Shown: piece by piece, positions 1,871 to 46,145 of the stretch
Layout: every line of letters begins with the position of its first letter
Numbering within the stretch: the stretch's first letter is position 1
Assembly: GCF_000217715.1 (NCBI RefSeq)
Contig: NC_015658.1
Coordinates: forward strand, 248,001-312,000
Reading direction: 5' to 3'
DNA length: 64,000 nt
Source: Halopiger xanaduensis SH-6
GTDB lineage: Archaea > Halobacteriota > Halobacteria > Halobacteriales > Natrialbaceae
Notes under the pieces: model-generated
Databases searched by the model: none
What the model was told of the DNA's origin: nothing
The model's input: only the letters and a program-made list of their open reading frames with translations
Made by a program: the position numbers and the translations under genes

Positions 1871-4075
1871 TTACGTCCCGTTCTCGGCTTCAGCCGTATT
1901 CTCCCGGTCCGCGGTCAACCGAACCATCGAGTACGGCGGAAGCGACACCGTGACGCTATCCTCGTCGACCACCGCGCTGTCGGTCGTCGGCGTGATCCGG
2001 TCGGGCTCCTCGAGCGTGTTTCGGTCGTACATCGTCTCCGCCGAGAGGCGGTCGACGGTGATTTCGCCCCCGTTGACGGCCGCCAGCGGCTCGCCCGACA
2101 CCGTGACGTCGATAGCGTCGGCCCCGGCGTCGCGGTGGACGAGGATGACGGCGAGATCATGCTCGTCGGCGTCGGTCACCGCCATCGCGTCGACTGCGGG
2201 CTCGTCGGTCACCGGCTCGAGTTCGCCGAACCACTCGCTCGTGTCCGCCCCCCAGGTCGTCTCCGTCGAAAAGGTGTGGCAGGTCACGTCGACGCCGATC
2301 GGGGTCCCGCCGATGAGCCCCGAACCGAGCTGCTGGCCGTAGTAACAGGGGTCGGCCCACACGCGTCCCTGCGACTTCCGGAGGCCGCCGCCGTGGTTCC
2401 CGACGCCGGAGTGGGTCACCATCTCGACGGTGCCGCTCCGGATGCACTCGTGGATGATCGTGGCGTCGAAGACGACCTCGGTGATGCTCTTGTTCGTCGG
2501 GAGCGTCTCGCGGTCGAGTTGGTGCTTCTGAGAGTCTGTGGACGGTTCGGTGTCGTCCTCTGGCTCGTCGAACCGGGTGAACAGTTGCAGCTCCGTAATC
2601 GCCTGTCGCACGTCCTCGAGGCCGGCGTCCCGGCAGTCGGCTGCGACCGCCTCGTACTCCTCGCGCAACTGGCTCGCGACGCCCGAGTGGGCGTTGAACA
2701 GTTCGACCGGATCGGTCTCGGGACTGGCGTGACACTCCATGAGGACGTGGTCCGTGAGCCAGTCGTCCGCGTCGAGTTCCTCGAGCAGCGGCTCGTTCCA
2801 GTCGGTCAGTCGGTTCCCGCAGGCCAGCACCTCGATCGAGTCGTCGACGGACTCCATCGCGTTCTTGAACCGGCGGAACCGGTCCGCGTTACCCCTCGGC
2901 GTCGTCCAGCCGATCTGCCACGAGCCGTAGAGTTCGTTCCCGACCTCCCAGTAGGTGACGTCGTACGGGTCGGGGTGGCCGTGTTCGGCCCGCAGCGCGC
3001 CCATCTCGGTGTCGGTCGAGCCGTTGCAGTACTCCACCCAGCGGGCCGCTTCCTCGGGCGTCGCGCTCCCGGCGTTCAGGCAGATCATCGGCTCGCAGCC
3101 GACCGCCTCGCAGAGCGCGACGAACTCGTCGGTGCCGAACAGGTTCGTCTCGAGGGCGTCCCACGCCGGGTTCGGCTTCGTCGGCCGCTCCTCTATCGGG
3201 CCGACGCCGTCCTCCCAGTGGTAGCCGGAGACGAAGTTCCCGCCGGGCCACCGGAGCACGGAGAGGTTCATCTCCGAGAGCAACTCGACGATTTCGGGAT
3301 CGGCCGTGGCGACGTGATCGTCGGGATAACAGCAGACGCGGTCGACGACGACGTTCGCGTCCGACGCCTGCGTGGTCACGCTGAACCCGTACAGACGCTC
3401 GTCCTCCCGGTCGACCGGCGGCAGCTCGAGCGAGAACGAGACGGTCCGGTTCTCGTCTCGAGCGGTCACCTCGGTTTCGGCGAGTAGCGTGCCGATCGAG
3501 CCGTCGTCGTCGACCTCGTGGATGGCGAGACGAACCGACGTCTCCTCGGCGGCGCGCAGCGTTACCTGCCCCTCGAACGCGGTCGTCCGGTGGACTGGAA
3601 GGTAACACCACTGCGCGAGCCCGTCGTATCCGTCCGTGGATCCGGTCTCGAACCGCTGTGCGCGGTCGTCCGCCGTTCCGATGTCGGGGCTCGTTCGAAC
3701 GTCCGCGGCGTGCCCGTACGGGAACCACCACAGCGCAGTGCCATCGTGATACGCGCGCTGCAACCGCTCGGCGGCCGGCAACCCGTGGGTCTCGGCGTAG
3801 GTCTCGATCCGCTCGTCGATGGCGTCGGGGTCGGAGAGCTCGCTGTTCCCGCCGTCGGCACCGTACTGCTGGTCCCCGAACTTCCAGGAGCCGAAGGTCG
3901 GATTGAACAGCACCTGCGCCTCGAGGACGTTCGTCACGTTCCGCGGCGTGTAGAGGTGTTCGCCGAATTTGCTATACAGTTCGGGAGACACGTCGTCGCC
4001 CCGGCGCGAGGGATCGAGCCGAACGGTCGCTCGAGACTCGGACTCGCCGCTCGCGTGCGTGAAAAGGTCTGCCAT
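1871..4075 (-). CDS. alpha-L-arabinofuranosidase, GH51-like, cytoplasmic
   Basis: 734 aa from the ATG at 4075; a GTG at 4096 would add seven residues. A (beta/alpha)8 clan GH-A enzyme: the RWPGGNF motif opens the barrel, WEVGNELYG carries the likely acid/base (N380-E381), and ITELQLF the likely nucleophile (E495). The last 150 residues form a beta-sandwich as in GH51. It has no signal peptide, so it probably releases L-arabinose from imported oligomers. It is transcribed away from the GH127 gene across a 108-base shared promoter with a palindromic operator. Family assignment is firm; the exact substrate is inferred. Confidence 0.88.
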   Translation of the reverse strand: MADLFTHASGESESRATVRLDPSRRGDDVSPELYSKFGEHLYTPRNVTNVLEAQVLFNPTFGSWKFGDQQYGADGGNSELSDPDAIDERIETYAETHGLPAAERLQRAYHDGTALWWFPYGHAADVRTSPDIGTADDRAQRFETGSTDGYDGLAQWCYLPVHRTTAFEGQVTLRAAEETSVRLAIHEVDDDGSIGTLLAETEVTARDENRTVSFSLELPPVDREDERLYGFSVTTQASDANVVVDRVCCYPDDHVATADPEIVELLSEMNLSVLRWPGGNFVSGYHWEDGVGPIEERPTKPNPAWDALETNLFGTDEFVALCEAVGCEPMICLNAGSATPEEAARWVEYCNGSTDTEMGALRAEHGHPDPYDVTYWEVGNELYGSWQIGWTTPRGNADRFRRFKNAMESVDDSIEVLACGNRLTDWNEPLLEELDADDWLTDHVLMECHASPETDPVELFNAHSGVASQLREEYEAVAADCRDAGLEDVRQAITELQLFTRFDEPEDDTEPSTDSQKHQLDRETLPTNKSITEVVFDATIIHECIRSGTVEMVTHSGVGNHGGGLRKSQGRVWADPCYYGQQLGSGLIGGTPIGVDVTCHTFSTETTWGADTSEWFGELEPVTDEPAVDAMAVTDADEHDLAVILVHRDAGADAIDVTVSGEPLAAVNGGEITVDRLSAETMYDRNTLEEPDRITPTTDSAVVDEDSVTVSLPPYSMVRLTADRENTAEAENGT

Positions 4076-4183: not shown

Positions 4184-6094
4184 ATGATGAACGCAGACGC
4201 AGTCCCGCTTTCGGACGTGACGATCACCGACGACTTCTGGCGTCCGCGAATCGAGACGAACCGGGACGTGACGATCGAGTACCAGTACGAGCAACTCGAG
4301 ACGAGCGGCTGCCTCGAGAACTTCCGGCGGGCCGCCGCCGGCGAAACGGGCGGCTTCGAGGGGTTCTGGTTCGCCGATACGGACGCGTACAAGTGGATCG
4401 AGGCCGCCAGTTACGTCCTCGCGACGACCGACGACCCTGACCTGGAGGAACGGGTCGACGAGGTCGTCGACCTGATCGCCGCCGCGCAGGAGGACGACGG
4501 CTACCTCAACACGTACTTCGCGCTCGAGGAGCCGGCGAAGAAGTGGACGAACCTCAACATGATGCACGAACTGTACTGCGCGGGCCACCTCATCGAAGCG
4601 GCCGTTGCGCACTACCGTGCGACGGGGAAGACGTCGTTGCTCGACGTCGCGACGAAATTCGCCGACTACATCGACGAGGTGTTCCCAGACGAGGTCGACG
4701 GCGCGCCGGGCCACCAGGAGATCGAACTCGCCCTGGTGAAACTCGCCCGCGCGACCGGCGAGGATCGCTATGTCGAACTCGCCGCCTACTTCATCGACGT
4801 TCGGGGCCGCACCGACCGCTTCGAGCGGGAGTTCGAGAACACCGAGGAGATCGCCGGCTACGACTCCGACGACGGCGGAATCGCCGAGAGCGCTCGCGGC
4901 GCGTTCTACGAAGACGGCGAGTACGACGGCACGTACGCGCAAGCGCACGCCCCGCTCGAGGAGCAGGACGCCGTCGAGGGTCACGCCGTGCGGGCGATGT
5001 ACTTCTTCGCCGGCGCCGCGGACGTCGCCGCGGAGATGGGTGACGACGAACTGCTCGAGCACTTAGAGCGGCTCTGGCGGAACATGACGACGAAGCGGCT
5101 GTACGTCACCGGCGGCATCGGGTCGGCCCACGAGGGCGAGCGGTTCACCGAGGACTACGACCTGCCCAACGACACGGCCTACGCCGAGACCTGCGCGGCG
5201 ATCGGGAGCGTCTTCTGGAACCGGCGCATGTTCGAACTGACCGGCGACGCGAAGTACGCCGACCTCATCGAACGGACGCTCTACAACGGCTTCCTGGCCG
5301 GCGTCTCGCTCGACGGCACCGAGTTCTTCTACGACAACCGCCTCGAGAGCGACGGGAGCCACGGCCGTCAGGGCTGGTTCGACTGCGCGTGCTGTCCGCC
5401 CAACGTCGCGCGGTTGTTCGCCTCGCTCGAGCGGTACCTGTACACCGTCGACGGGCGGGAACTCTACGTCAACCAGTACGTCGAGAGTACGGCGACACCG
5501 ACGGTCGACGACGCCGAACTCGAGGTCGCACAGACGACCGACTACCCCTGGGACAGCGAGGTGACGATCGACGTCGAGGCGCCGGAACCGACGCAGGCGA
5601 CGATCTCCCTTCGCGTCCCCGAGTGGTGCGACGAGGCGTCGATCGAGGTGAACGGGGAGCCGATCCCGGTCGACGGCGACGGGTACGTCTCCCTCGAGCG
5701 CACGTGGGACGACGATCGAATCACCGCGACTTTCGAGATGTCGGTTACCGTCGTCCGCAGCCATCCCGCGGTCGCGGCCAACGCCGGCCGCGTCGCCCTC
5801 GAGCGCGGGCCGATCGTGTACTGCCTCGAGGAGCCCGACGCCGAGCGACCGGTGCATCAGTACCGCGTCGACTCGACGACCGACCTGGAGCCGGTTTACC
5901 GGGACGACCTCCTGGGCGGCGTGACCGTCCTCGAGGGGGAAGCGCCGGTCCCGGCTCTCGACGGTTGGGGGAACAGCCTCTACCGACCGGCCGAGGAATG
6001 CGAGGAGACGACGGCCCAATTGACCGCGATCCCGTACTACGCGTGGGATAACCGCGAAAGCAGTGCGATGCGCGTCTGGCTACAGGAAAACTAA
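4184..6094 (+). CDS. beta-L-arabinofuranosidase, GH127 (DUF1680) family
   Basis: 636 aa, the usual length for the family. GH127 enzymes use a Zn-bound cysteine as nucleophile, and the ligands are all visible: E335 and C337 in AETCA, then C401, C403 and C404 in the CACCPPN motif, with C403 the expected nucleophile. The N-terminal (alpha/alpha)6 barrel is followed by two beta-sandwich domains. There is no signal peptide, so it acts in the cytoplasm on beta-linked arabinofuranosides. A second ATG follows directly at 4187; either start is possible. Transcription is from the TATA/operator region just upstream. Confidence 0.93.
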   Translation: MMNADAVPLSDVTITDDFWRPRIETNRDVTIEYQYEQLETSGCLENFRRAAAGETGGFEGFWFADTDAYKWIEAASYVLATTDDPDLEERVDEVVDLIAAAQEDDGYLNTYFALEEPAKKWTNLNMMHELYCAGHLIEAAVAHYRATGKTSLLDVATKFADYIDEVFPDEVDGAPGHQEIELALVKLARATGEDRYVELAAYFIDVRGRTDRFEREFENTEEIAGYDSDDGGIAESARGAFYEDGEYDGTYAQAHAPLEEQDAVEGHAVRAMYFFAGAADVAAEMGDDELLEHLERLWRNMTTKRLYVTGGIGSAHEGERFTEDYDLPNDTAYAETCAAIGSVFWNRRMFELTGDAKYADLIERTLYNGFLAGVSLDGTEFFYDNRLESDGSHGRQGWFDCACCPPNVARLFASLERYLYTVDGRELYVNQYVESTATPTVDDAELEVAQTTDYPWDSEVTIDVEAPEPTQATISLRVPEWCDEASIEVNGEPIPVDGDGYVSLERTWDDDRITATFEMSVTVVRSHPAVAANAGRVALERGPIVYCLEEPDAERPVHQYRVDSTTDLEPVYRDDLLGGVTVLEGEAPVPALDGWGNSLYRPAEECEETTAQLTAIPYYAWDNRESSAMRVWLQEN

Positions 6095-6182: not shown

Positions 6183-6944
6183 CTACGCGTAGTTGTACTC
6201 GAGTTCGATCACGTTCGCCGCACCCTGGAGCGCGGTCAGATAGTCGCCGTAGAACTGATCGTCGTCGACGCGGTGGACGGGGCAAGAGAGACCGATCGAC
6301 GCGATACTTCGCCCGTCGTCGTCGGTGATCGGTGCAGCGAGCGATCGCAACCCGGGCCGTTGTTCCTCGTCGCTCTCCGCGTACCCTCGTTCGCGGATTG
6401 CGGTCAGTTCGTTGTCGAGGGACTCACGTGTCGTGATGGTGTTCGACGTGAGCATCGGTAAACCGTGCTCCGAAACGATGCCGTCGACCTCACACTGGGA
6501 GCGGAACGCGAGTAGCGCTTTTCCGGACGCCGTACTGTGGAGGTGGACGGGTTCGCCTTCGTGCGTGCCCAGTTCGATTCCGTTCGTTCCGCTGGCGTAG
6601 TACAGGTAGACCCCGAGGCCGTTGTTCTCGACGAACAGCGTCGCGAGTTCGCCCGTCTCCTCGGCGAGGCGATCGACCTGCGGTTGGGCGATGTCGTAGA
6701 TGGGGACGAGATTTCTCGCGTGAGAGCCGAGACTGAAAAGCGGCAGTCCGATGTGGTACTCGTCGCCGTCCTTGTCGACGTACTCGTTATGCTCGAGCGT
6801 TTTCAGGTAGTTGTACACCGACCGCTGTCCGATGTCGACCCGCTCCGTGATCTCGCCGATGGTCGCACCGTCGAGGTCGCGGATGACCTCCAAGATTTCG
6901 AAGGTGCGGCTAACGGACCGGATAGAAGACTCTGACTTAGCCAT
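6183..6944 (-). CDS. IclR family transcriptional regulator
   Basis: 253 aa from the ATG at 6944. Residues 5-70 form the winged helix (IGEITERVDIGQRSVYNYLKTL), followed by the IclR effector-binding GAF-like domain with the typical HLHSTASGKALLA and RGYAESDEEQRPGLRSLAAPI segments. It follows the GH2 gene on the same strand after 53 bases, but a TATA-like CTATATG (about 6970-6976 on the minus strand) would allow a leaderless transcript of its own. It is the local candidate regulator for the arabinosidase genes. The longer open frame to 7241 is antisense-like extension over GH2 and was not used. Confidence 0.92.
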   Translation of the reverse strand: MAKSESSIRSVSRTFEILEVIRDLDGATIGEITERVDIGQRSVYNYLKTLEHNEYVDKDGDEYHIGLPLFSLGSHARNLVPIYDIAQPQVDRLAEETGELATLFVENNGLGVYLYYASGTNGIELGTHEGEPVHLHSTASGKALLAFRSQCEVDGIVSEHGLPMLTSNTITTRESLDNELTAIRERGYAESDEEQRPGLRSLAAPITDDDGRSIASIGLSCPVHRVDDDQFYGDYLTALQGAANVIELEYNYA

Positions 6945-6997: not shown

Positions 6998-9676
6998 CTA
7001 GTCCCGGCCGGCGAGATAGTCGACGAGTCGACACAACAACCCGGTCACTACCGGGTGCGATCCGGCGGTCGTCTGCACGCGGAACGTGCACGCGACGACC
7101 CGACCGTCGTCGACGGACCGCTCGAGGAGCGGACTCCCCTGGTCGGCCAGCCACCCCCGCACGAACCCGACGTGGACGGTGTCCTCCTCGGGCGCGACGT
7201 CCGCGACGATGTCGTACGGGTAGGCGTCTTCGAACTCCCACCCGAGGTGGCGGTTCGAACAGAACGCCTCGACGAGCGGCGAATCCTGGTAGAAAAACGA
7301 CGCCGCGTTGTTCCAGCTGTCCGTCCGCGGGAGCGACCGAAACTCGAAAAACTCGGTCCCCTGCATCTCTCCCTGGCGGTCCGGGACGTGGACGGCGGTC
7401 CCCCCGTTCGAAACGAACTCGACGATCTCCGCGGTCGTCTCCGTCACGAACGCGACGTCGACGTCGGGCGTCAGGCGGTGGGTGACGTCGAATCCCACCG
7501 ACGCGAGTCTCGAGGCGAGCGTCCCCTCGGCGAACACCAGCGCTTCCGGCGGTTCGCGCGGCGACGGGACGACGACGATCGGTTCCGTACGCGCCAGTTC
7601 CGTCTCGGAGCAGCCCCGAACCGTTAGATCAGCGATCTGTACCGACTCGACCTCCGGGGCGGTAATCCGAACCGGATCCAGTTCCGCTACGGAGTGTGGC
7701 GGGGCAGTCAGCTGTCGGGTTTCGGTCGTCCCGTCGAACTCCCACTCGAGGTCTTCGACGACGCGGTCGTCGGTATCGTTGACGAGCGCGATCTCGAGTT
7801 CGCACTCCCCGCCGCCCCACGCGACGTGCGAATCGACCGTCGGGACGATCGTCACGTCGGCGTTCAGCGCGGCGACGTCGTCGTAGACGGCCTTCTCGTT
7901 TCGGCAGTAATCGAGCAGGCCGGTCACCTCCCACTCGGTATCGTACAGCTGCGTCAGCACGTAGCCGGCGATTTCCTCCCGCGTTCGAAACTCGCCGAGG
8001 ATGTGCTCGAGCGAGACGCTCGCGCGGTGTTGCCACGACGCGGCGAGGTCCTCGAGGCCGTCGAAGACGTCGTCGAGACCGGTCTCGGCGAACCGGTCCT
8101 GAACGCCGCTGGGCCGCTTGACCGGGTCGGTGAGGAACTCGTGGGAGAACCACGCCGGCTCTCGACCGTAGTGGTCGACGAGCGTGGAAACCGACGGAAA
8201 CGAGAGGGCGCCGAACTCCGAGATCACGACCGGCTCGCCGTCGTCGGACCAGCGCTGGGTCGCGTAGTTATCCCGGCGGTGGTGGAGCGTGTGTTCCAGA
8301 TTCTCGACCCACTCGGTCGCTCGGTCGGGACTGATACAGTACCAATGGTAGTCGTTGAGATCGGTCTCGACGTGGGCCCACCCGGAGTTGTCACAGACGA
8401 GGCGCGTCGGATCCCACTCCCGAACCGTTTCGACCAGCGACGCGAGGTACGTCTGCTTCGCCTCGTCGGTCCAGAGCGTCTCTTCGGCCTCGTCGTGGCC
8501 GATCCCCCACTCCTCGTGGTAGAGGCTCCAGACCACGACGCTCGGCCGGTTGTAGTCCCGTTCGACGAGCCGGCGGAGTTCGGTTTTCACCTCTTCTTTC
8601 GAGCGATCCGTATACTGTGCCGGGTTCGCCGGCTCCTCCCAGACGAGGATTCCCTGCCGGTCGGCTGCCTCGAGGAAATCGGGGTGGGCCGGTTTGAGGT
8701 GTTTGCGAACGAGGTTGAACCCGAGTTCCGAGACGCGCTCGAGTTCGCGCTCGAAGAAGCCGTCGTCCGGCGGTCGGTACAACGTCGTGGGGAAGTAGCC
8801 CTGATCGAGCACCCCGCGGAGTCGAATCGGGTCGCCGTTGAGCCGGAAGCCGTCGTCGTCGCGCTCGATCGTCCGGAGGCCGAAGTAATCCTCGTAGCGA
8901 TCGAGCACCTCGCCGTTGGCTTCGAGCGTGATCTCGAGGTCGTACAGCGCCGGGGACTCGGGCGACCAGTACGCCGGCTCGTCGAACTCGAGGACGGCGT
9001 CGTCGTCCCCGTCTATCGGATGGACGGCGATCGCTTCGACCTCCCCGTCTCGCGAGGCTCGAACGACGGCGTCGACCGCCGACGGATCACTGTCGCCGAC
9101 GTCGACATCAAGCGAGACGGCGGCGGTATCCGTCTCGAGGTCGGGCGTCACTTTCGCCCCCGAAACGTGGGTCTCCGGCCGGAACGAGAGCGTCACCGAC
9201 TGCCAGATTCCGCTGACGCGCGTAAACCACGGCTCGCCCTGCTTCCCGTGGGGAATCTCCGACAGATCCTCGGGATCGTGAACCGCGACGGTGAGCGCGT
9301 TCTCCCCGTCGGTGATCGCATCCGTGATTTCGAACTCGAAGGGCAGGTAGCCGCCGCGGTTTTCGCCGACCCGCTCCCCGTTGACCCAGACGGTCGTCCA
9401 GTAGTCGGCGGCGCCGAATTCGACGAAGACGCGCCGTGACTCGAGTTCCGCCACGTCGACCTGAAAGGTCCGATTGTACCACGCGGTTCCGGTATATCCC
9501 CGCAGGCCGTCGTCCTCCTGCCAGCTGTGCGGAACGTCGACGGGATTGGCCTCGGTGAGCCACATCGCGAGTTCCGTCTGCCATCCCTCCGTCATCCCGA
9601 TGCCGTCGGGATCGACTTCGAAGAGCCACTCCCCGTCGAGCGACCGAGAGCGGCGAAGGGACGTATCGTCGTTCAT
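6998..9676 (-). CDS. glycoside hydrolase family 2 enzyme
   Basis: 892 aa. Order: jelly-roll sugar-binding domain (about 1-170), immunoglobulin-like domain (170-275), TIM barrel (275-580), then about 300 residues of beta-rich and amidotransferase-like sequence. The nucleophile is E487 in VISEFGALS. The acid/base is E388 in WSLYHEEWG; most GH2 enzymes have Asn before this Glu, here it is His387. No signal peptide is seen. GH2 covers beta-galactosidases, glucuronidases, mannosidases and arabinosidases; context favours an enzyme acting on arabinan or pectin side chains, but the substrate is not readable. Its upstream region holds the paired operators of the fused regulator gene. Confidence 0.9.
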   Translation of the reverse strand: MNDDTSLRRSRSLDGEWLFEVDPDGIGMTEGWQTELAMWLTEANPVDVPHSWQEDDGLRGYTGTAWYNRTFQVDVAELESRRVFVEFGAADYWTTVWVNGERVGENRGGYLPFEFEITDAITDGENALTVAVHDPEDLSEIPHGKQGEPWFTRVSGIWQSVTLSFRPETHVSGAKVTPDLETDTAAVSLDVDVGDSDPSAVDAVVRASRDGEVEAIAVHPIDGDDDAVLEFDEPAYWSPESPALYDLEITLEANGEVLDRYEDYFGLRTIERDDDGFRLNGDPIRLRGVLDQGYFPTTLYRPPDDGFFERELERVSELGFNLVRKHLKPAHPDFLEAADRQGILVWEEPANPAQYTDRSKEEVKTELRRLVERDYNRPSVVVWSLYHEEWGIGHDEAEETLWTDEAKQTYLASLVETVREWDPTRLVCDNSGWAHVETDLNDYHWYCISPDRATEWVENLEHTLHHRRDNYATQRWSDDGEPVVISEFGALSFPSVSTLVDHYGREPAWFSHEFLTDPVKRPSGVQDRFAETGLDDVFDGLEDLAASWQHRASVSLEHILGEFRTREEIAGYVLTQLYDTEWEVTGLLDYCRNEKAVYDDVAALNADVTIVPTVDSHVAWGGGECELEIALVNDTDDRVVEDLEWEFDGTTETRQLTAPPHSVAELDPVRITAPEVESVQIADLTVRGCSETELARTEPIVVVPSPREPPEALVFAEGTLASRLASVGFDVTHRLTPDVDVAFVTETTAEIVEFVSNGGTAVHVPDRQGEMQGTEFFEFRSLPRTDSWNNAASFFYQDSPLVEAFCSNRHLGWEFEDAYPYDIVADVAPEEDTVHVGFVRGWLADQGSPLLERSVDDGRVVACTFRVQTTAGSHPVVTGLLCRLVDYLAGRD

Positions 9677-9800: not shown

Positions 9801-9821
9801 CTATTTCTCTATAAGAAATAG
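9801..9821. promoter_or_regulatory. operator-like inverted repeat, copy 1
   Basis: Perfect 8-bp palindrome: CTATTTCT (9801-9808), spacer CTATA, AGAAATAG (9814-9821). A second copy 120 bases away keeps arm sequence and spacer length. It lies 125 bases upstream of the GH2 start. Likely bound by a dimeric regulator, most simply the fused IclR protein encoded next to it (inference). Confidence 0.75.
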
Positions 9822-9923
9822 ATAGCGGCGGGATCGCATAATTACACGGGTACTGTTGTAACGAATGGTATGGTGTAACACGGAGAAATTCGGGATATTA
9901 GCGGCTCTACGGAGAAGACATTC

Positions 9924-9942
9924 TGTTTCTCATAAAGAAATA
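9924..9942. promoter_or_regulatory. operator-like inverted repeat, copy 2
   Basis: TGTTTCT (9924-9930), spacer CATAA, AGAAATA (9936-9942): six of seven arm positions pair, and the arms match copy 1 except at one base. Shared consensus TATTTCT-N5-AGAAATA. The two copies have the same 5-base spacer, as expected for one protein. Confidence 0.7.
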
Positions 9943-10220
9943 CGTTCGTGGGCGCGGTGGAAACGCCGGCGCCGTTTCGCTCCGATCGAATCGAGACCGA
10001 TCACGAACGCCGAACGAATCCGCAGTAGGGATCCGTACCAATAAGGTCGTCCAACAACGAAGAGCCACTCAATGACACACGCACGCACGGTCCGCCCCGG
10101 TCGACGACGTTCGCGCAACGGACTGGTACCCCACAGACCGGCTGGGCCGACGTGCGAGACCGGACGGTGTCGGACGGCCAGCCGATCAGAGGGGAACGAC
10201 ACGCCAGCAGACGGAGGACG

Positions 10221-12326
10221 ATGACCGACGACGAACCAACGGACGACCGCGACGGACGCGTCCTGTACAGCCCCCCGGAGTGGGCGCCGGTCCCCGGGGC
10301 GATGTACCCTCGAGTCGCTCGACTCGAGCACGACGAGAGCGGCGACCCGACGCTTCTCGCGACGTTCGAATGTTACGAGACGGCGGGCAAGAACGGCACC
10401 GACGAGCCGTATTTCCCGGTCTATCGGAGCACCGACGACGGCCGAACCTGGTCTCGCTTCGCCGAGATTCGGGACACCCAGCACGGGTGGGGACTGCGGT
10501 ACCAGCCGACGCTCTTCGAGGCCCCACAGCAGCTCGGTCCCTGGGAGGCGGGAACGGTCTTTGCCGTCGGAAACTCGATTCCGAGCGACCGCTCCGAGAC
10601 GAGCATCGACCTCTACGCGAGCGAGGACGGCGGCCGGACCTGGACGTACGTCAGCACCGTCGACACGGGCGGAAAAGCCGTCCCGGGACGCGGGGAGTCG
10701 CCGGTGTGGGCGCCCGAACTGACCGTCGATGCCGACGGCAACCTCGTCTGTTACTTCTCCGACGCGCGCCACTCGGACGACGGCTACAACCGCGTCATCG
10801 GCCACCGCGTCTCCACAGACGGCGGGCAGACGTGGGACTCCGAGACGTTCGACGTCGCGATCGCGGACGACGAGTCGACGCCGGGAATGCCGACGATCAC
10901 GAAACTCCCGACGGGCCGGTACCTCCTCGCGTACTTTATCGGCGGGCGGCGGTACGGGGGCGGCGTGTACGTCAAAACGTCGCCGAACGGCCGCGACTGG
11001 GGCGCACCCGACGACGTCGGATCGCCCGTCCGGACCGACGACGGGCGCCAGCTCATCGAGGGGCCCTACGCGACCTGGGTCCCCTACGGGGACGACGATG
11101 GGACGATTCTGGTCGCAGGAAAGACGCTCCGCGACCAGAACCGAAATCGCGTTTCCGAAAGCGGGACGGTCCTGCTCGCCTCGAGCGATCTCTCCGGCAC
11201 GGAGACGTGGGAACCGGTTTCGGCACCGCTGTGGTACGACGACGAGCTCGAAACCGGCCACCGGTCCGTCGGGTGGACGAGCGCGTTGCTCCCGTCGGCG
11301 GACGGGACGGCGCTCCTGCACCTGACCTCGACGTACGACGGCCACGGCAAAACCGAGATCAGGTACGCGCGAGCGCCGCTGGAATCGCTTTTCGACTACG
11401 ACTCGAGCGACCGTGCGGCGGAGGGGGCGTCGCAGCGACGGGCCGGCGATCGTTCATCGTCGTCCTCGCCGTCGCCGTCACCGTCGCAGGACCCGCCCGG
11501 AGCGGTCCGACGGTCGCGGGAGTCGACGCAGTCGGCGGAATCGCACCACGTCAAATCGATCGTCAAAGCGTTCGAACTCCTCGAGACGCTCGAGCAGACG
11601 GGCGAGATCGGCGTGACCGAACTGTCCAGACAGACCGGCATCGCGAAAAGTTCAGTCTACAAGTACCTCGACACGCTGCGACACCTCGGATACGTCACGA
11701 AATCCGACGGCGCCTACGCACCGTCGCTGCGACTGTTCCACTTCGGGCAACGCGTCGTCTCTCGCCACGAGGCCTACCGCATCGCACAGCCGGAACTCGA
11801 CGCGCTGGCCGAGAAAACCGGCGAAGTGGTCTCGCTGATCGTCGAAGAGGACGGCGATGCGGTGTATCTCTACTCCACGTCGCCCCACGACGACCGGACC
11901 ATCGAAGAGGGGAGCCGAATGCCGATCCACGCGTCGACGGGCGGGAAGGCGCTCCTCTCGTACCGATCGCGGGAGTACGTCGACGACATCCTCGAGAACA
12001 CCGTGTTCGATATCGATCGCCAGAACTTCTACGCCGACCTGAAGCAAGCGCGCGACAACCGCGTCATCATCGATCGGGAAACGAACACGCAACAGTACAA
12101 CGCAGGCGTGCTCGAAAAGCGCTGGCACTCCTTCGACCAGCAGGCGGAGACGAATCAACTCTATCGGATCGCCGTTCCGATTCGAGATGCAGATGACAAG
12201 GGGGTCGCCGCCATAGAAGTCCTCGGTTCGGAGTTGCAATACGATTCCCGACGCCTCCAGGAGGAGATCGTGCCGCTGCTGGTTTCGGCCGGGAAATCGC
12301 TCGAAACTGAACTCTTGCGCACCTAG
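10221..12326 (+). CDS. sialidase/GH93-like beta-propeller fused to IclR regulator
   Basis: 701 aa from the ATG at 10221, which has GGAGG at 10213-10217; an upstream in-frame start at 10152 adds 23 unlikely residues. Residues 1-391 are a BNR/Asp-box propeller: boxes at STDDGRTW (70-77), SEDGGRTW (134-141) and STDGGQTW (198-205), with the YPRVARL opening typical of sialidase-fold glycosidases such as GH93 exo-arabinanases. A Ser/Pro-rich linker (392-441) leads without a stop into a complete IclR protein: winged helix (VTELSRQTGIAKSSVYKYL) and effector domain (442-701). There is no signal peptide, so the protein is cytoplasmic. The propeller may be an enzyme or a sugar sensor for the regulator; the arabinosidase context favours arabino-oligosaccharides (inference). 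Confidence 0.88.
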   Translation: MTDDEPTDDRDGRVLYSPPEWAPVPGAMYPRVARLEHDESGDPTLLATFECYETAGKNGTDEPYFPVYRSTDDGRTWSRFAEIRDTQHGWGLRYQPTLFEAPQQLGPWEAGTVFAVGNSIPSDRSETSIDLYASEDGGRTWTYVSTVDTGGKAVPGRGESPVWAPELTVDADGNLVCYFSDARHSDDGYNRVIGHRVSTDGGQTWDSETFDVAIADDESTPGMPTITKLPTGRYLLAYFIGGRRYGGGVYVKTSPNGRDWGAPDDVGSPVRTDDGRQLIEGPYATWVPYGDDDGTILVAGKTLRDQNRNRVSESGTVLLASSDLSGTETWEPVSAPLWYDDELETGHRSVGWTSALLPSADGTALLHLTSTYDGHGKTEIRYARAPLESLFDYDSSDRAAEGASQRRAGDRSSSSSPSPSPSQDPPGAVRRSRESTQSAESHHVKSIVKAFELLETLEQTGEIGVTELSRQTGIAKSSVYKYLDTLRHLGYVTKSDGAYAPSLRLFHFGQRVVSRHEAYRIAQPELDALAEKTGEVVSLIVEEDGDAVYLYSTSPHDDRTIEEGSRMPIHASTGGKALLSYRSREYVDDILENTVFDIDRQNFYADLKQARDNRVIIDRETNTQQYNAGVLEKRWHSFDQQAETNQLYRIAVPIRDADDKGVAAIEVLGSELQYDSRRLQEEIVPLLVSAGKSLETELLRT

Positions 12327-12545: not shown

Positions 12546-15035
12546 ATGTCACCAGATCCAACGGCAGATGGTAGTGTCGACAACGGTTCGGACGACGCGG
12601 GCCTGTCGCGTCGCGAACTGCTCGCAACGCAGTCCGTGTTGGTCGCCGGTTCGACGGTCGGACTCGGCGCCGGCATCGCGTCGGCCGAACCCCGGGAAAC
12701 GATCGAGAACAGAGTTAGCGTCGATCCCCGCTCCCGGTCCGACGAGCCGGTCCCCGACACGCTGTTCGGCCGGCTGAACGAGCACTACGGGGACGCGACG
12801 ATCTACCCGGGCGTCTACTCGCTGCACGTGATGAACCCGACGTTCTGGCGGGTTCCCGACGACTGGTTCAGCGACGAGATAGACGCGTTCTACGAGGTCG
12901 AGCGCCACGAGACGCTGCCGTTCCCGTGGGAGCCGGTCGGCGATTCGGGCGTCGCCTCCGAGCACCGCGCCGACGGCGACCGCGTCGCCGGCGGCGACTC
13001 GCCGCACGGGACCGTCGGCTACCCGCGGATCGCGGTCGACGACGCGGCCGACAGCGGCGGCCTCAAACAGCGGATCGTCCTGCCCGACAACCGGACGCTC
13101 GGCTACGACCTCGGCTTCTCGGTGCGCGGCGACGTCGACACCCTCACGGCGTCGCTGACGACGCTCGAGGGCGACGTGCTCGCCTCGACCGAGGTGGACG
13201 TTTCCGAGGAGTGGACGCGCTACGAACCGACGCTCGAACTCGAGGAGCAAAGCGGGGACGAGTACGTCGGCGGCGCCGTCGCGGACGTCGAAACGCCGTA
13301 CGGGCAGTACGCCCTCGAGTTCACGACCGACGGCGTCGGCCACTTCGACATCGACTTTATCGAACTCGCGGCCGACGACGCCGTCAACGGGAAGTTCAAC
13401 CCGTACACGGTCGAACTGCTGGAGGAACAGAACGGCACGTGGCTGAAGTGGCCCGGCGGCAACGTCACCAGCCAGTACAACTGGCGCGACGGGATCGGCC
13501 CGCTCGAGGAGCGCACGCCCCGGTTCAACCACGCCTGGCAGGGAATGCAGCCCAACTTCTTCGGTACCGCCGAATACTTAGAACTGTGCGAGGTCGCCGA
13601 TCTCACGCCCGAGATCACGATCGGCTGGTGGGACAACCCCGACGACTGGGCCGAAGAGCGACAGATCCTGCCCGAAGACGCCGCCGACTGGGTCGAGTAC
13701 GTCAACGGCTCGAGCGACACCGAGATGGGCGCGCTGCGCGCAGAACACGGCCGCACCGACCCCTGGAACGTCGACCACTGGGGCGTCGGCAACGAGGTCT
13801 GGGGGGACTGGCAGTGGGGCCACACATCGGACGCCTCGGAGTACGCTACCGGCTCCGAGGACCGGATCGGCTTCGACGAGTACGCCGCGGCGATGCGCGA
13901 GGTCGACGGTTCGATCACGATCATCGCGAGCGGGTGGGATCCGGCCGAGGCCGAACACAACGACAATCCGTGGAACGAGACGCTACTGGACGAACTGTCC
14001 CCAGAGCAACTCGACGGGCTGAACATCCACCGCTACCAGTGGGGACTCGAGAGCGCCGACGCGGTCGAGACGTGGAAGAACGACCACGACGCCGACGACT
14101 GGGACTACAGCGAAGTGATCGTGATGGCAGCGACCCAGCTCGGCGAGCAGCTCGCCGACCTCGGCGACCTGGCCGACGAGCACGGTTACGAGGACTTCTA
14201 CGTCAACTTGAGCGAGATCGGCATCTTCCCGACCGTCGCGGACGGCGCGCCGTATCCGGGCCCGGAGACGATGCCCGGCGCGTCCTACGTCGCGGGCGTG
14301 CTCAACGCGTGTATTCGAGAGACGGATACCGTCAAGTGGGCCGCCCAAACGTGGGTCCCGATCAAGTCGTGGGTGCCGATGAAGACGGATGACTACCCGC
14401 CGGATCCGAACCCGCTCCGTCCCGACGGCTCCGTGACGGGGCTGTACTCGGCCGTCTTCGAGTACGACGCCGAGTGGCACGCGATCGACGTCGCGACGAG
14501 CGGCGCCGGTCGCGACCTCCCCGACACCGGGGAGCGGATCAACCCGATGGACGACGTCCCGTACGTCGACGCCGCCGCGATGCAGAACCGACGGGGCAAG
14601 GAACTGGCCCTGTTCCTGACCAACCGGAACCTCCGGGCACAGAGCGAGGTAACGATCGAACTGGGCGAGTGGTACGCCGACAAATCGGTCGAAATCGTCA
14701 CGCTCGAGCCGGCTACCGACGAGCGGCCGCTCCCGCACGAGACGCCGACGTCGTGGGACGAACCGACGAACCACGCGGTCGAGCACACGATCGAGGACGT
14801 CGACGGCGACGGAACGGTCACGCTCGAGCTCGAGCCGGCGTCGATCGCCCGGCTGTTCGTCGACAACGACCGGGGTCGAGCCGATATCATCGGCGACAAC
14901 GGCGTGTGGCCCGGACTCGACGGTGAGGAGGACATCCCGATCCGGAACAACAGCACACCCGGCAGGAAGAACGGCCACGGCAAGAAGAACGGGAATGGGA
15001 ACGGGAACGGCAAAAAGCGCGGGCAGTCGAAATAG
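12546..15035 (+). CDS. Tat-exported GH51-like alpha-L-arabinofuranosidase
   Basis: 829 aa from the ATG at 12546, chosen because it puts the Tat motif SRRELL at residues 21-26, with a hydrophobic stretch and cleavage site ASA after residue 47. The GH-A barrel has KWPGGNV, the acid/base E417 in GVGNEVWG, and the likely nucleophile E557 in NLSEIGIF. It resembles the GH51-like protein at 1871-4075 (NGSSDTEMGALRAEHG is shared almost exactly) but carries a longer N-terminal beta domain. The last 35 residues are a basic Gly/Asn/Lys tail. It probably trims arabinan outside the cell to feed the importer (inference). Confidence 0.87.
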   Translation: MSPDPTADGSVDNGSDDAGLSRRELLATQSVLVAGSTVGLGAGIASAEPRETIENRVSVDPRSRSDEPVPDTLFGRLNEHYGDATIYPGVYSLHVMNPTFWRVPDDWFSDEIDAFYEVERHETLPFPWEPVGDSGVASEHRADGDRVAGGDSPHGTVGYPRIAVDDAADSGGLKQRIVLPDNRTLGYDLGFSVRGDVDTLTASLTTLEGDVLASTEVDVSEEWTRYEPTLELEEQSGDEYVGGAVADVETPYGQYALEFTTDGVGHFDIDFIELAADDAVNGKFNPYTVELLEEQNGTWLKWPGGNVTSQYNWRDGIGPLEERTPRFNHAWQGMQPNFFGTAEYLELCEVADLTPEITIGWWDNPDDWAEERQILPEDAADWVEYVNGSSDTEMGALRAEHGRTDPWNVDHWGVGNEVWGDWQWGHTSDASEYATGSEDRIGFDEYAAAMREVDGSITIIASGWDPAEAEHNDNPWNETLLDELSPEQLDGLNIHRYQWGLESADAVETWKNDHDADDWDYSEVIVMAATQLGEQLADLGDLADEHGYEDFYVNLSEIGIFPTVADGAPYPGPETMPGASYVAGVLNACIRETDTVKWAAQTWVPIKSWVPMKTDDYPPDPNPLRPDGSVTGLYSAVFEYDAEWHAIDVATSGAGRDLPDTGERINPMDDVPYVDAAAMQNRRGKELALFLTNRNLRAQSEVTIELGEWYADKSVEIVTLEPATDERPLPHETPTSWDEPTNHAVEHTIEDVDGDGTVTLELEPASIARLFVDNDRGRADIIGDNGVWPGLDGEEDIPIRNNSTPGRKNGHGKKNGNGNGNGKKRGQSK

Positions 15036-44326: not shown

Positions 44327-45100
44327 ATGAACGAGCCCGATCAAGGAAACTCCGACCGGCGAATCCAATCGCTCGAACGGGGGTTCGAGGTACTCGAGTA
44401 CCTCTACCGGGAAGGGGAGACCACCGTCTCCGAGCTGGCGGCTGCGCTAGATCTATCGACGAGCACGGCTCATATCTATTTGAAAACGCTCAGTGATCTC
44501 GGCTACGTGAAAAAAGCGGCGTCGAAATACTCGCTCAGCCACCGCTTTCTTCGATTCGGTACAAAGACGCGAAAGCAGGCGGATATCTATCAAGCGGCGC
44601 TCTCAGAAGTCGATAAACTGGCCGACGAAACGAACGAAGTTTCCGCACTCGGCGTTCCGGAGCGGGGAAAACGAGTCCTGTTATACAAGTCGGAGAGTTC
44701 CGAGGCAGTATACGATAATCCGCCAGCGGGCGAGTACACGTACATGCATTGGACCGCGCTCGGAAAAGCGATACTCGGTCACTTGCCGCGCGATCGGGTC
44801 GAAGAAATAATCGATCAACACGGACTCCCCGCCAGAACCCAACAGACGATCACGGAAGAGTCCGAACTGTTTGACGAGTTAGCGACGATCAACGAAACCG
44901 GGTACGCCGTCGAAGACGAAGAGCGGTGGAACGGGATTCGGTCGGTTGCAGTGCCGATCCTCGATAACGAAACTGTCGTCGGCTCAATTTCTGTCTCAGG
45001 TCCGAAAAATAGATTCGACCGAGATCGGATCGAATCCGAATTAGTCACCGATCTTATGCAGTCAAAAAACGTAATTGAAGTCAGATTAGCGCACGAATGA
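44327..45100 (+). CDS. IclR family transcriptional regulator
   Basis: 257 aa, complete. Winged helix at 12-75 (TVSELAAALDLSTSTAHIYLKTLSDLGYVKK); effector domain with YMHWTALGKAILGHL and the ETGYAVEDEERWNGIRSVAVPI segment. AT-rich flanks and slightly less GC-biased codons than its neighbours suggest transfer. No target gene adjoins; the truncated dehydratase/IclR scar 2.7 kb to the left hints that a sugar-acid locus once stood here. Confidence 0.92.
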   Translation: MNEPDQGNSDRRIQSLERGFEVLEYLYREGETTVSELAAALDLSTSTAHIYLKTLSDLGYVKKAASKYSLSHRFLRFGTKTRKQADIYQAALSEVDKLADETNEVSALGVPERGKRVLLYKSESSEAVYDNPPAGEYTYMHWTALGKAILGHLPRDRVEEIIDQHGLPARTQQTITEESELFDELATINETGYAVEDEERWNGIRSVAVPILDNETVVGSISVSGPKNRFDRDRIESELVTDLMQSKNVIEVRLAHE

Positions 45101-45371
45101 TCGCTTTCCACAACGCCGCTGTGATGGATTTTCTTCCCGCGTTCATCCTGAAACAGACACTCTAGATGAGTGATTTTTACTGTATAGTGGCAGTGTACTG
45201 AATAGTTGTGATTATAGGATAATTGCCAAGATAAAGTTGGAACTATTCATATTATATTTAGTTGATAATTTCATCCGGAATGGCCCTCAGTTGCTGTGAA
45301 AGCATCGCCATCCATAGTTCGATGAAGCCACACCTATCAGTCCATTACAAGCATACAAGTGTAATTTGAGA

Positions 45372-46145
45372 TTAGAACACGTCGTCTTTCAGCGCGTCGA
45401 CTTCGTCCAGTAACAGCCGGCCGGTTGCCGCAGTCGAGTCGTCGTCGACGGCCATACGGTACGTCGGGCCGCCGACGGTGAACGCACCGAGGACATCGCC
45501 ATCCGGGCCCGTGACCGCCGCTCCGATTGACCGATATCCCTCGATCAGTTCTTCGTCATTAACAGCGTATCCGCGGCGTCGAATCGTCTCGAGTTCCTCG
45601 AACAGCGTCGATTCACTGGTGATCGTCTGCTCGGTCGTCGCGGGCAGTCCCCAGCGATCGAGGATCGATCGAACGTGATCTTCGGACATGGCAGCTAACA
45701 TCGCCTTTCCCGAGGCGCAGTTGTGCATGTGAAACCGGTTGCCGGCTCGGAACGGGCTCGATTCCGAAACGCCGCGCGTCGACTCGCTAAGCGCGTACTC
45801 GAGCGAGTAGGCGCGGCCGTTTTCCTCCACGATGAAGTCGGCCTCGTTGCCCGTCTGCTCGGCGAGCGAGTAGACGCGTCGACGCGCCGGCGCATACAGG
45901 GGGTTCCGGTGGCGCGCGTGTTCGCCGAACGGGAGGAACTCGAGTCCGACGTGATACGCGTCGCCCTCGCGAACGAGAAAGCCCTCGTCGACCAGCGTGT
46001 GGAGGTGGTTGTGGATGGTGCTCTTGGCCAGGTCGAGGCGATCGGCCAGCTCGCTCAGCGTCGCACCGTCGGTGTCGCGAATCGCACGGACGATCGCGAA
46101 CGACGTTTTCGTCGTCTTGACCGGGCGCGGCCGACTGTCAGTCAT
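45372..46145 (-). CDS. IclR family transcriptional regulator
   Basis: 257 aa from the ATG at 46145; the frame to 46448 upstream is not protein-like. Winged helix at 8-70 (ATLSELADRLDLAKSTIHNHLHTL), effector domain with HMHNCASGKAMLAAM and the RGYAVNDEELIEGYRSIGAAV segment. It lies 518 bases downstream of the aldehyde dehydrogenase stop on the same strand, a spacer holding repeated GTGTGAACA-type motifs that are likely its own operators (inference). Confidence 0.92.
   Translation of the reverse strand: MTDSRPRPVKTTKTSFAIVRAIRDTDGATLSELADRLDLAKSTIHNHLHTLVDEGFLVREGDAYHVGLEFLPFGEHARHRNPLYAPARRRVYSLAEQTGNEADFIVEENGRAYSLEYALSESTRGVSESSPFRAGNRFHMHNCASGKAMLAAMSEDHVRSILDRWGLPATTEQTITSESTLFEELETIRRRGYAVNDEELIEGYRSIGAAVTGPDGDVLGAFTVGGPTYRMAVDDDSTAATGRLLLDEVDALKDDVF

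Follow-up and report, generated by a model that had tools for sequence, protein, structure and literature searches.

The DNA analysed here is a 64,000-nt stretch of the Halopiger xanaduensis SH-6 genome (contig NC_015658.1, positions 248,001–312,000; hereafter the window, whose own numbering is used throughout). Genomes and loci used for comparison carry G and L numbers, and G000 is the source genome. An Opp-type ABC transporter operon begins outside the window and reaches into it with its ATPase end (20–1577, + strand; assigned by blast clusters, and by Pfam for the upstream part, L085). It is followed by an arabinofuranosidase-like gene with Alpha-L-AF_C and ASD1_dom domains (1871–4075, − strand; Pfam), a GH127 β-L-arabinofuranosidase gene (4184–6094, + strand; PF07944, E = 2.1e-118), an IclR regulator gene (IclR2; 6183–6944, − strand) and, upstream of IclR2, a GH2-family glycosidase gene (6998–9676, − strand; Pfam). 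Divergent from the GH2 gene, a single open frame of 701 codons (10221–12326, + strand) runs without an internal stop and encodes a 701-residue protein, P0001. An arabinofuranosidase-like gene (ASD1_dom; 12546–15035, + strand) follows, whose product has, with its start chosen by eye, a twin-arginine-like N-terminus (SRRELL) and is perhaps secreted. Outside the window, the cluster also includes genes for a GH4 enzyme, a Zn-dehydrogenase, an Alpha-L-AF_C arabinofuranosidase, an SBP_bac_5 protein, a permease and an ATPase. The setting is thus an arabinoside cluster, in which an Opp-type ABC transporter accompanies enzymes of the GH127, GH2 and arabinofuranosidase types; a first-pass annotation made from the sequence alone had likewise placed the frame inside an arabinosidase cluster.

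P0001 is composed of (i) a GH93-type six-bladed propeller that has lost its catalytic pair (residues 1–388; 10221–11384, + strand), assigned by phmmer and structural alignment; (ii) a disordered, Ser/Pro/Arg-rich linker of ~55 residues (residues 389–441; 11385–11543, + strand); (iii) an HTH_IclR winged-helix DNA-binding domain (11556–11702, + strand; Pfam E = 2.1e-13); and (iv) an IclR effector domain (11751–12323, + strand; Pfam IclR_C E = 3.6e-19, and alignment) with an insertion of ~22 residues. The Pfam matches cover residues 67–238 (BNR_2), 446–494 (HTH_IclR, 50.2 bits against a cut-off of 22) and 511–626 (IclR_C, 69.4 bits against a cut-off of 24); the last spans profile positions 2–126 of 174, the rest of the domain holding the insertion. 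Both parts of a complete winged-helix IclR protein are thus present, as is the six-bladed propeller with three Asp boxes noted at first reading: by eye we find three canonical boxes (STDDGRTW, SEDGGRTW and STDGGQTW) and a degenerate fourth (SPNGRDW). Unlike the usual IclR layout with an N-terminal HTH, ~440 residues precede the HTH in P0001. AlphaFold2, run with an alignment of 39 sequences, gave a model with a mean pLDDT of 76 and a pTM of 0.57, in which pLDDT falls below 50 at residues 396–442 of the linker and 621–646 of the insertion; at this pTM the mutual placing of the propeller and IclR halves is not fixed by the model. The protein is soluble-looking, and its N-terminus has no visible signal peptide.

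The passage from the propeller to the winged helix lacks an in-frame ATG, GTG or TTG, the only candidate being a CTG at codon 387; the two parts therefore share one frame with neither a stop nor a usual start between them, as the first-pass annotation had stated. We considered and rejected a separate IclR protein made from an internal start: the P0001 linker offers none of these codons, yet each of the other five fusions described below has one in-frame ATG or GTG within its linker.

A search for the same domain order in other haloarchaeal genomes, proposed with the first-pass annotation, yielded five more full-length fusions. Among the 125 family genomes searched, six from four genera thus carry full-length and stop-free orthologues: G000, G009 (93% identity to P0001), G015 (80%), G096 (69%), G095 (68%) and G120 (63%). 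A draw of 391 genomes of the class, which included four of these six (G000, G015, G095 and G096), gave no further full-length match at E ≤ 1e-40 when the best two candidates per genome were scored. Among 72,556 plasmid records, only NZ_CP095492.1, the complete plasmid of Halosolutus gelatinilyticus (G015; NCBI family Natrialbaceae), covers 80% of the query at one place, and the fusion is annotated there as one CDS (WP_247004427.1, "helix-turn-helix domain-containing protein"). The six proteins have 688–704 residues, and their linkers, measured between the last strand and the HHVKS motif, have 46–57 residues and are always in frame.

The fused propellers form one clade and the fused IclRs form one clade (100/99 in both trees), with identical internal branching, which is most simply explained by a single fusion event followed by joint descent. 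The propeller tree excludes the frameshifted copy S_G072b, and the IclR tree excludes the second copy of G094 (L030); the tree program gave long-branch warnings for S_G261 with the fungal enzymes, for S_G410 with the outgroup IclRs and for F_G120, itself a long branch. Over the 15 pairs of fusions, Nei–Gojobori (NG86) estimates are dN 0.03–0.24 and dS 0.24–1.21 for the propeller half and dN 0.02–0.34 and dS 0.27–1.44 for the IclR half, that is to say, both halves are under purifying selection. The linker reaches a dN/dS of at least 0.65 in 10 of the 15 pairs, a rough figure from 36–45 codons. Constrained halves and a fast linker together point to a loosely constrained spacer that holds the frame between constrained domains. 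The fusion is real. That it might be a recent accident or a sequencing artefact, two adjacent genes joined through a lost stop, is scarcely credible: both parts do occur as separate genes elsewhere, in L067 only ~6 kb apart, but the fusion is found in six genomes of four genera, its halves branch together within single clades, its linker varies in length and stays in frame, and a complete plasmid carries it as one CDS. By the same findings, the refuting case named with the first-pass annotation, in which all close homologues would be two separate genes, does not hold.

The neighbourhood of the fusion is largely shared. By blast clustering, all six loci have a gene of the arabinofuranosidase type close to the fusion, and five have a GH2 gene, G120 lacking one within its 20 kb. 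Genes for an Opp-type transporter are found at five of the six loci (in G009, one ATPase in the stretch fetched), and the G120 transporter is of another type. The transporter operon lies directly 3′ of the fusion in G096 and G095. In Halosolutus, a rhamnogalacturonan lyase gene lies beyond the transporter, a gene content that would fit the side chains of pectin.

The propeller is specifically of the GH93 (exo-1,5-α-L-arabinanase) type. By phmmer, residues 14–303 of P0001 match the solved GH93 exo-arabinanases 3a71 (E = 1.1e-57) and 2w5n (Arb93A; E = 7.4e-52), with sialidases far below. Structural alignment of the modelled residues 6–392 with 2ydp (Arb93A E242A) gave a Z score of 43.3 and an RMSD of 2.4 over 345 aligned residues with 34% identity; among the families listed, sialidases came next, at Z = 28.7. 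Foldseek also returned a GH93 match (E = 1e-27), along with IclR structures.

In the account of GH93 given in PMC11813348, the catalytic residues are named E170, E242 and Y337 for the Penicillium structure 3A72; for Arb93A, E242 is given in the PDB title of 2ydp, and positions 156 and 228 of the Arb93A chain correspond to residues 170 and 242 (an offset of 14, worked out by hand). At the site of Arb93A E170, P0001 has A164 (codon 10710–10712, + strand), and at the site of E242 it has F239 (codon 10935–10937, + strand), both placed by alignment. Across the six fusions, the first position is A, A, A, V, V and D and the second F, F, F, Y, Y and H, whereas Glu is present at both positions in 24 of 24 aligned stand-alone haloarchaeal homologues (a count that leaves out the stand-alones H3 and H7 and the bacterial relatives) and in both fungal enzymes. 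For Y337, the profile and phmmer alignments end before the last blade and reach no column. Sixty-seven columns are invariant in the two fungal enzymes and 23 intact stand-alones, the frameshifted S_G072b being omitted; 54 of them are unchanged in all six fusions. Only four are changed in all six, and the catalytic pair makes up two of these four (chance by hand calculation, 6/2211 = 0.003).

The first-pass annotation had suggested looking for GH93 or sialidase catalytic residues in a predicted structure, and had left open whether the protein binds or cuts an oligosaccharide. The GH93 fold is confirmed, but the catalytic glutamates are absent, and the loss of both in all six fusions makes binding without hydrolysis much more likely than cutting. 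Thus, the fused propeller is probably a pseudoenzyme, retained for something other than cutting. The residue at position 239 is always replaced by an aromatic one, which would suit stacking on a sugar, and the title of 2ydp reports Arb93A E242A crystallised with an iminosugar, so that such a residue loss need not abolish binding. A propeller that is still active, or altered in its activity, and travels with the regulator as a bifunctional protein or as a trigger enzyme removing its own inducer would fit the GH93 fold and the retention of most invariant columns. The haloarchaeal alignment also shows an acidic residue, E166, that is almost invariant and two positions away from A164. However, E166 is found in nearly all stand-alones that retain the catalytic pair and hence is no substitute for the lost Glu, and the lost residues themselves have been replaced in varied ways; we regard an active enzyme as improbable.

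In the source genome, the fused propeller is the sole match at E ≤ 0.001. At E ≤ 1e-40, all six fusion genomes yield one match apiece, a threshold that leaves room for weaker GH93 relatives in the other five; the enzyme gene thus seems to have been turned into a sensor. No genome with both the fusion and a stand-alone GH93 was listed among the 125 family genomes or in the 391-genome draw. GH93 genes have been noted in haloarchaea (PMC3102087; PMC9726719), and the passages concerned mention no fusion.

In the IclR half, the insertion of ~22 residues in the effector domain (P0001 ~621–646) is shared with the stand-alone relatives at L020–L024, L029, L047, L067 and L081 and is absent from the other aligned IclRs, including IclR2 and L048. 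The presumed recognition helix, SSVYKYLDTL, is kept in the fusions and in most stand-alone members of the subfamily and differs in IclR2, which Pfam, alignment and tree place in another subfamily. Long open frames ahead of some stand-alone iclR genes (L060 and L029) are provisionally ascribed to GC-rich open DNA, because the HTH is where a simple gene caller places the start of these genes. The first-pass annotation had set the fusion against IclR proteins that normally sense small acids. This contrast is weaker than stated, because haloarchaeal IclRs are already known for sugar control: XacR, GacR, RhcR and MscR regulate sugar catabolism and, as presented in the relevant part of PMC11519228, are activators.

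The two matching operators reported beside the fusion are present as TTTC-N7-GAAA palindromes at 9804–9818 and 9926–9940, 122 nt apart, found by pattern search between the divergent GH2 and fusion genes. By eye, the two are upstream of TATA-like elements by ~100 nt, a position compatible with activation. The source genome has 41 TTTC-N7-GAAA sites, against 7 for the reversed control, and two pairs of sites at a spacing of 121–122 nt: the pair at 9804/9926 and one in front of the transporter operon (C1:243158/243279; L085). With a weight matrix, nine pairs spaced 121–125 nt were found across the six fusion genomes (two each in G000, G096 and G095, one in each of the others), every genome having such a pair in the cluster or close by, and two further pairs, spaced 124 nt, lie beside the nearest stand-alone IclRs in G008 and G007 (L060 and L061). 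Eight of the 19 pairs within 400 nt, all at L067, L082 and L083, have other spacings, 29–393 nt. At L062–L066 and L081, the stand-alone iclR genes of the fusion's subfamily are immediately preceded by single sites. Scores above 11 were reached at 46 of 160,527 intergenic and 3 of 617,377 genic positions, in a search that is partly circular because the 13 training sites of the matrix come from the same loci. Held out of training were both sites of the pairs at L053, L085, L051 (19345/19470) and L052 (458/582), the site at L052 14801, and the singles at L062–L066 and L081; L055/L084 and L067/L031 are overlapping or repeated loci in the set.

The conserved operator-like pairs track the IclR subfamily of the fusion. 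G096, G095 and G120 have no pair at the fusion's own promoter, and the only pair found in G120 is flanked by the fusion and a gene called as convergent, both with their 3′ ends towards it, a position that suits no promoter. The exact pair pattern, which misses G095, occurs in 12 of the 391 genomes, the reversed control giving 0 throughout; four of the 12 (G000, G007, G015 and G096) have the fusion or a near IclR. The other eight (G041, G042, G043, G047, G011, G038, G294 and G322) show no link to arabinan or to this IclR that we could see; G322 does have a stand-alone GH93, on a different contig from its pair.

Which regulator binds the pairs is a question separate from the nature of the propeller. 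They could be bound by IclR2, with the fusion binding elsewhere: IclR2 adjoins the GH2 gene, whose upstream region carries the pair in G000, G009, G015, G096 and G095. Against this assignment, which we consider rather unlikely, candidate pairs or singles lie beside iclR genes of the fusion's subfamily at L060–L066 and L081–L083, and the shared recognition helix described above belongs to most of that subfamily and not to IclR2. A second palindrome, TTACA-N10-TGTAA, lies between the paired sites (9842–9861; pattern search). Similarly placed copies of TTACA-N10-[TC]GTAA occur at L085 (9237), L049 (9446), L050 (11206), L051 (3507), L052 (14760) and L082 (1130 and 8661); this motif is perhaps the site of another IclR-type regulator, and IclR2 might own one of the two motifs. 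A further copy is found at 45345 of the window, between the iclR genes at 44327–45100 and 45372–46145.

Downstream of the paired sites, a conserved TATA-like element, CCAATAAGG (10038–10046, + strand), marks the putative promoter of the fusion; each of the six upstream regions has AATAAG or GGATAAGG between −182 and −110 relative to the fusion start. All six fusion genomes conserve an ATG, here at 10072 and ~30 nt past the TATA-like element, that begins a short frame (10072–10224) whose end lies 3 to 8 nt inside the fusion gene. A leader peptide under selection, considered for this frame, gained no support: in the three pairwise comparisons among G000, G009 and G015, the differences are spread about evenly over the three codon positions (5, 7 and 7; 17, 16 and 16; 16, 15 and 12).

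Taken together, the fusion, the single clade formed by each half, the selection on both halves, the loss of the catalytic pair and the conserved operator-like pairs lead us to the following reading, to which we give a probability of about 0.68. The capture of a GH93 exo-arabinanase, N-terminal to an IclR of an arabinoside locus, would have taken place once, in an ancestor from which part of the family descends, and P0001 would now be a cytoplasmic arabino-oligosaccharide receptor derived from a dead arabinanase that controls the arabinan uptake and degradation cluster. Arabino-oligosaccharides would enter the cell through the Opp-type ABC transporter, and the dead propeller would bind their non-reducing end (arabinobiose, by analogy with GH93). 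Binding may shift how the IclR dimer or tetramer sits on the paired TTTC-N7-GAAA operators 121–125 nt apart, to which we provisionally match the protein. Activation of the GH2, fusion and transporter promoters, rather than repression, would be the most likely outcome, and the GH127, GH2 and arabinofuranosidase-type enzymes would then use up the ligand and so end the signal. The idea of one cytoplasmic protein that both recognises a sugar and controls genes, raised at first reading, is therefore plausible in its sensing and regulatory parts and not in its enzymatic one.

The propeller might instead be a protein-interaction or stability module, or bind a glycan other than arabinan, while the IclR effector domain senses the inducer. 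P0001 does have that domain, which could by itself account for the sensing; together with its insertion, the domain is common to stand-alone relatives that lie, propeller-free, beside similar operators. Such a role is unlikely, however, given the purifying selection on the propeller, the GH93-invariant columns that it mostly keeps and an arabinoside locus that fits the GH93 substrate. A tentative extension of the receptor reading, possible though not favoured, is a soluble factor with two inputs, in which the propeller would read a polymer-derived oligosaccharide and the IclR effector domain a catabolite, both gating the arabinan cluster. If so, P0001 would be the first described one-component regulator with a dead glycosidase propeller as its receptor; in open PMC papers we found no description of an IclR–propeller fusion or of a dead-glycosidase receptor regulator, in agreement with the first-pass annotation, which knew of no such system.

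MocR/PdxR regulators, in which a winged HTH is fused to an aminotransferase-like domain, also have an enzyme-derived sensor in a one-component regulator; they differ from P0001 in enzyme class, ligand and HTH family. P0001 resembles the GH93 enzymes Fusarium Arb93A and Penicillium Abnx in fold, aligned identity (34–36%), most invariant columns and arabinoside context. It differs from them in the replacement of both catalytic Glu residues, the absence of a visible signal peptide and the fused IclR. By the criterion of the catalytic pair, we would not class P0001 as a GH93 enzyme but as an IclR family member with an added domain. With the haloarchaeal IclR sugar regulators XacR, GacR, RhcR and MscR it shares the winged HTH, the effector domain and the sugar catabolic setting. 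MscR is described in PMC11519228 as a two-domain protein typical of IclR-like regulators, to which P0001 adds a third, enzyme-derived propeller domain and the ~22-residue effector-domain insertion. The Bacteroides arabinan sensor BT0366, a hybrid two-component system (HTCS), binds arabino-oligosaccharides from the hexaose up according to the section on this sensor in PMC3243724. Like P0001, such an HTCS joins a propeller to a transcription-factor output and senses arabino-oligosaccharides, as P0001 presumably does. By contrast, the HTCSs as described there are membrane-spanning kinases with two 7-bladed periplasmic Reg_prop propellers and an AraC-type output, whereas P0001 is a one-component protein, looks soluble and carries a six-bladed propeller of enzyme origin; no Reg_prop, histidine kinase, receiver or AraC output is among its Pfam matches at E ≤ 0.001.

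The fusion shows how a carbohydrate-cutting enzyme can become the likely receptor of a gene regulator while catalytically intact relatives persist in related lineages. It gives a testable account of polysaccharide-fragment sensing in some haloarchaea, and could serve haloarchaeal genetics as an arabino-oligosaccharide switch. In annotation it calls for caution, since any tally of GH93 in the fusion genomes would count a protein that is probably unable to cut. Among the stand-alone genes, G024, G025, G027 and G072 each have two GH93 copies ~10 kb apart, of which one has, by eye, a twin-arginine-like N-terminus and the other does not. The stand-alone GH93 of Natrinema sp. SYSU A 869 at L059 (4198–5519; the same gene as in L028) is split over two overlapping frames and is probably broken; the same genome has a second copy in one frame.
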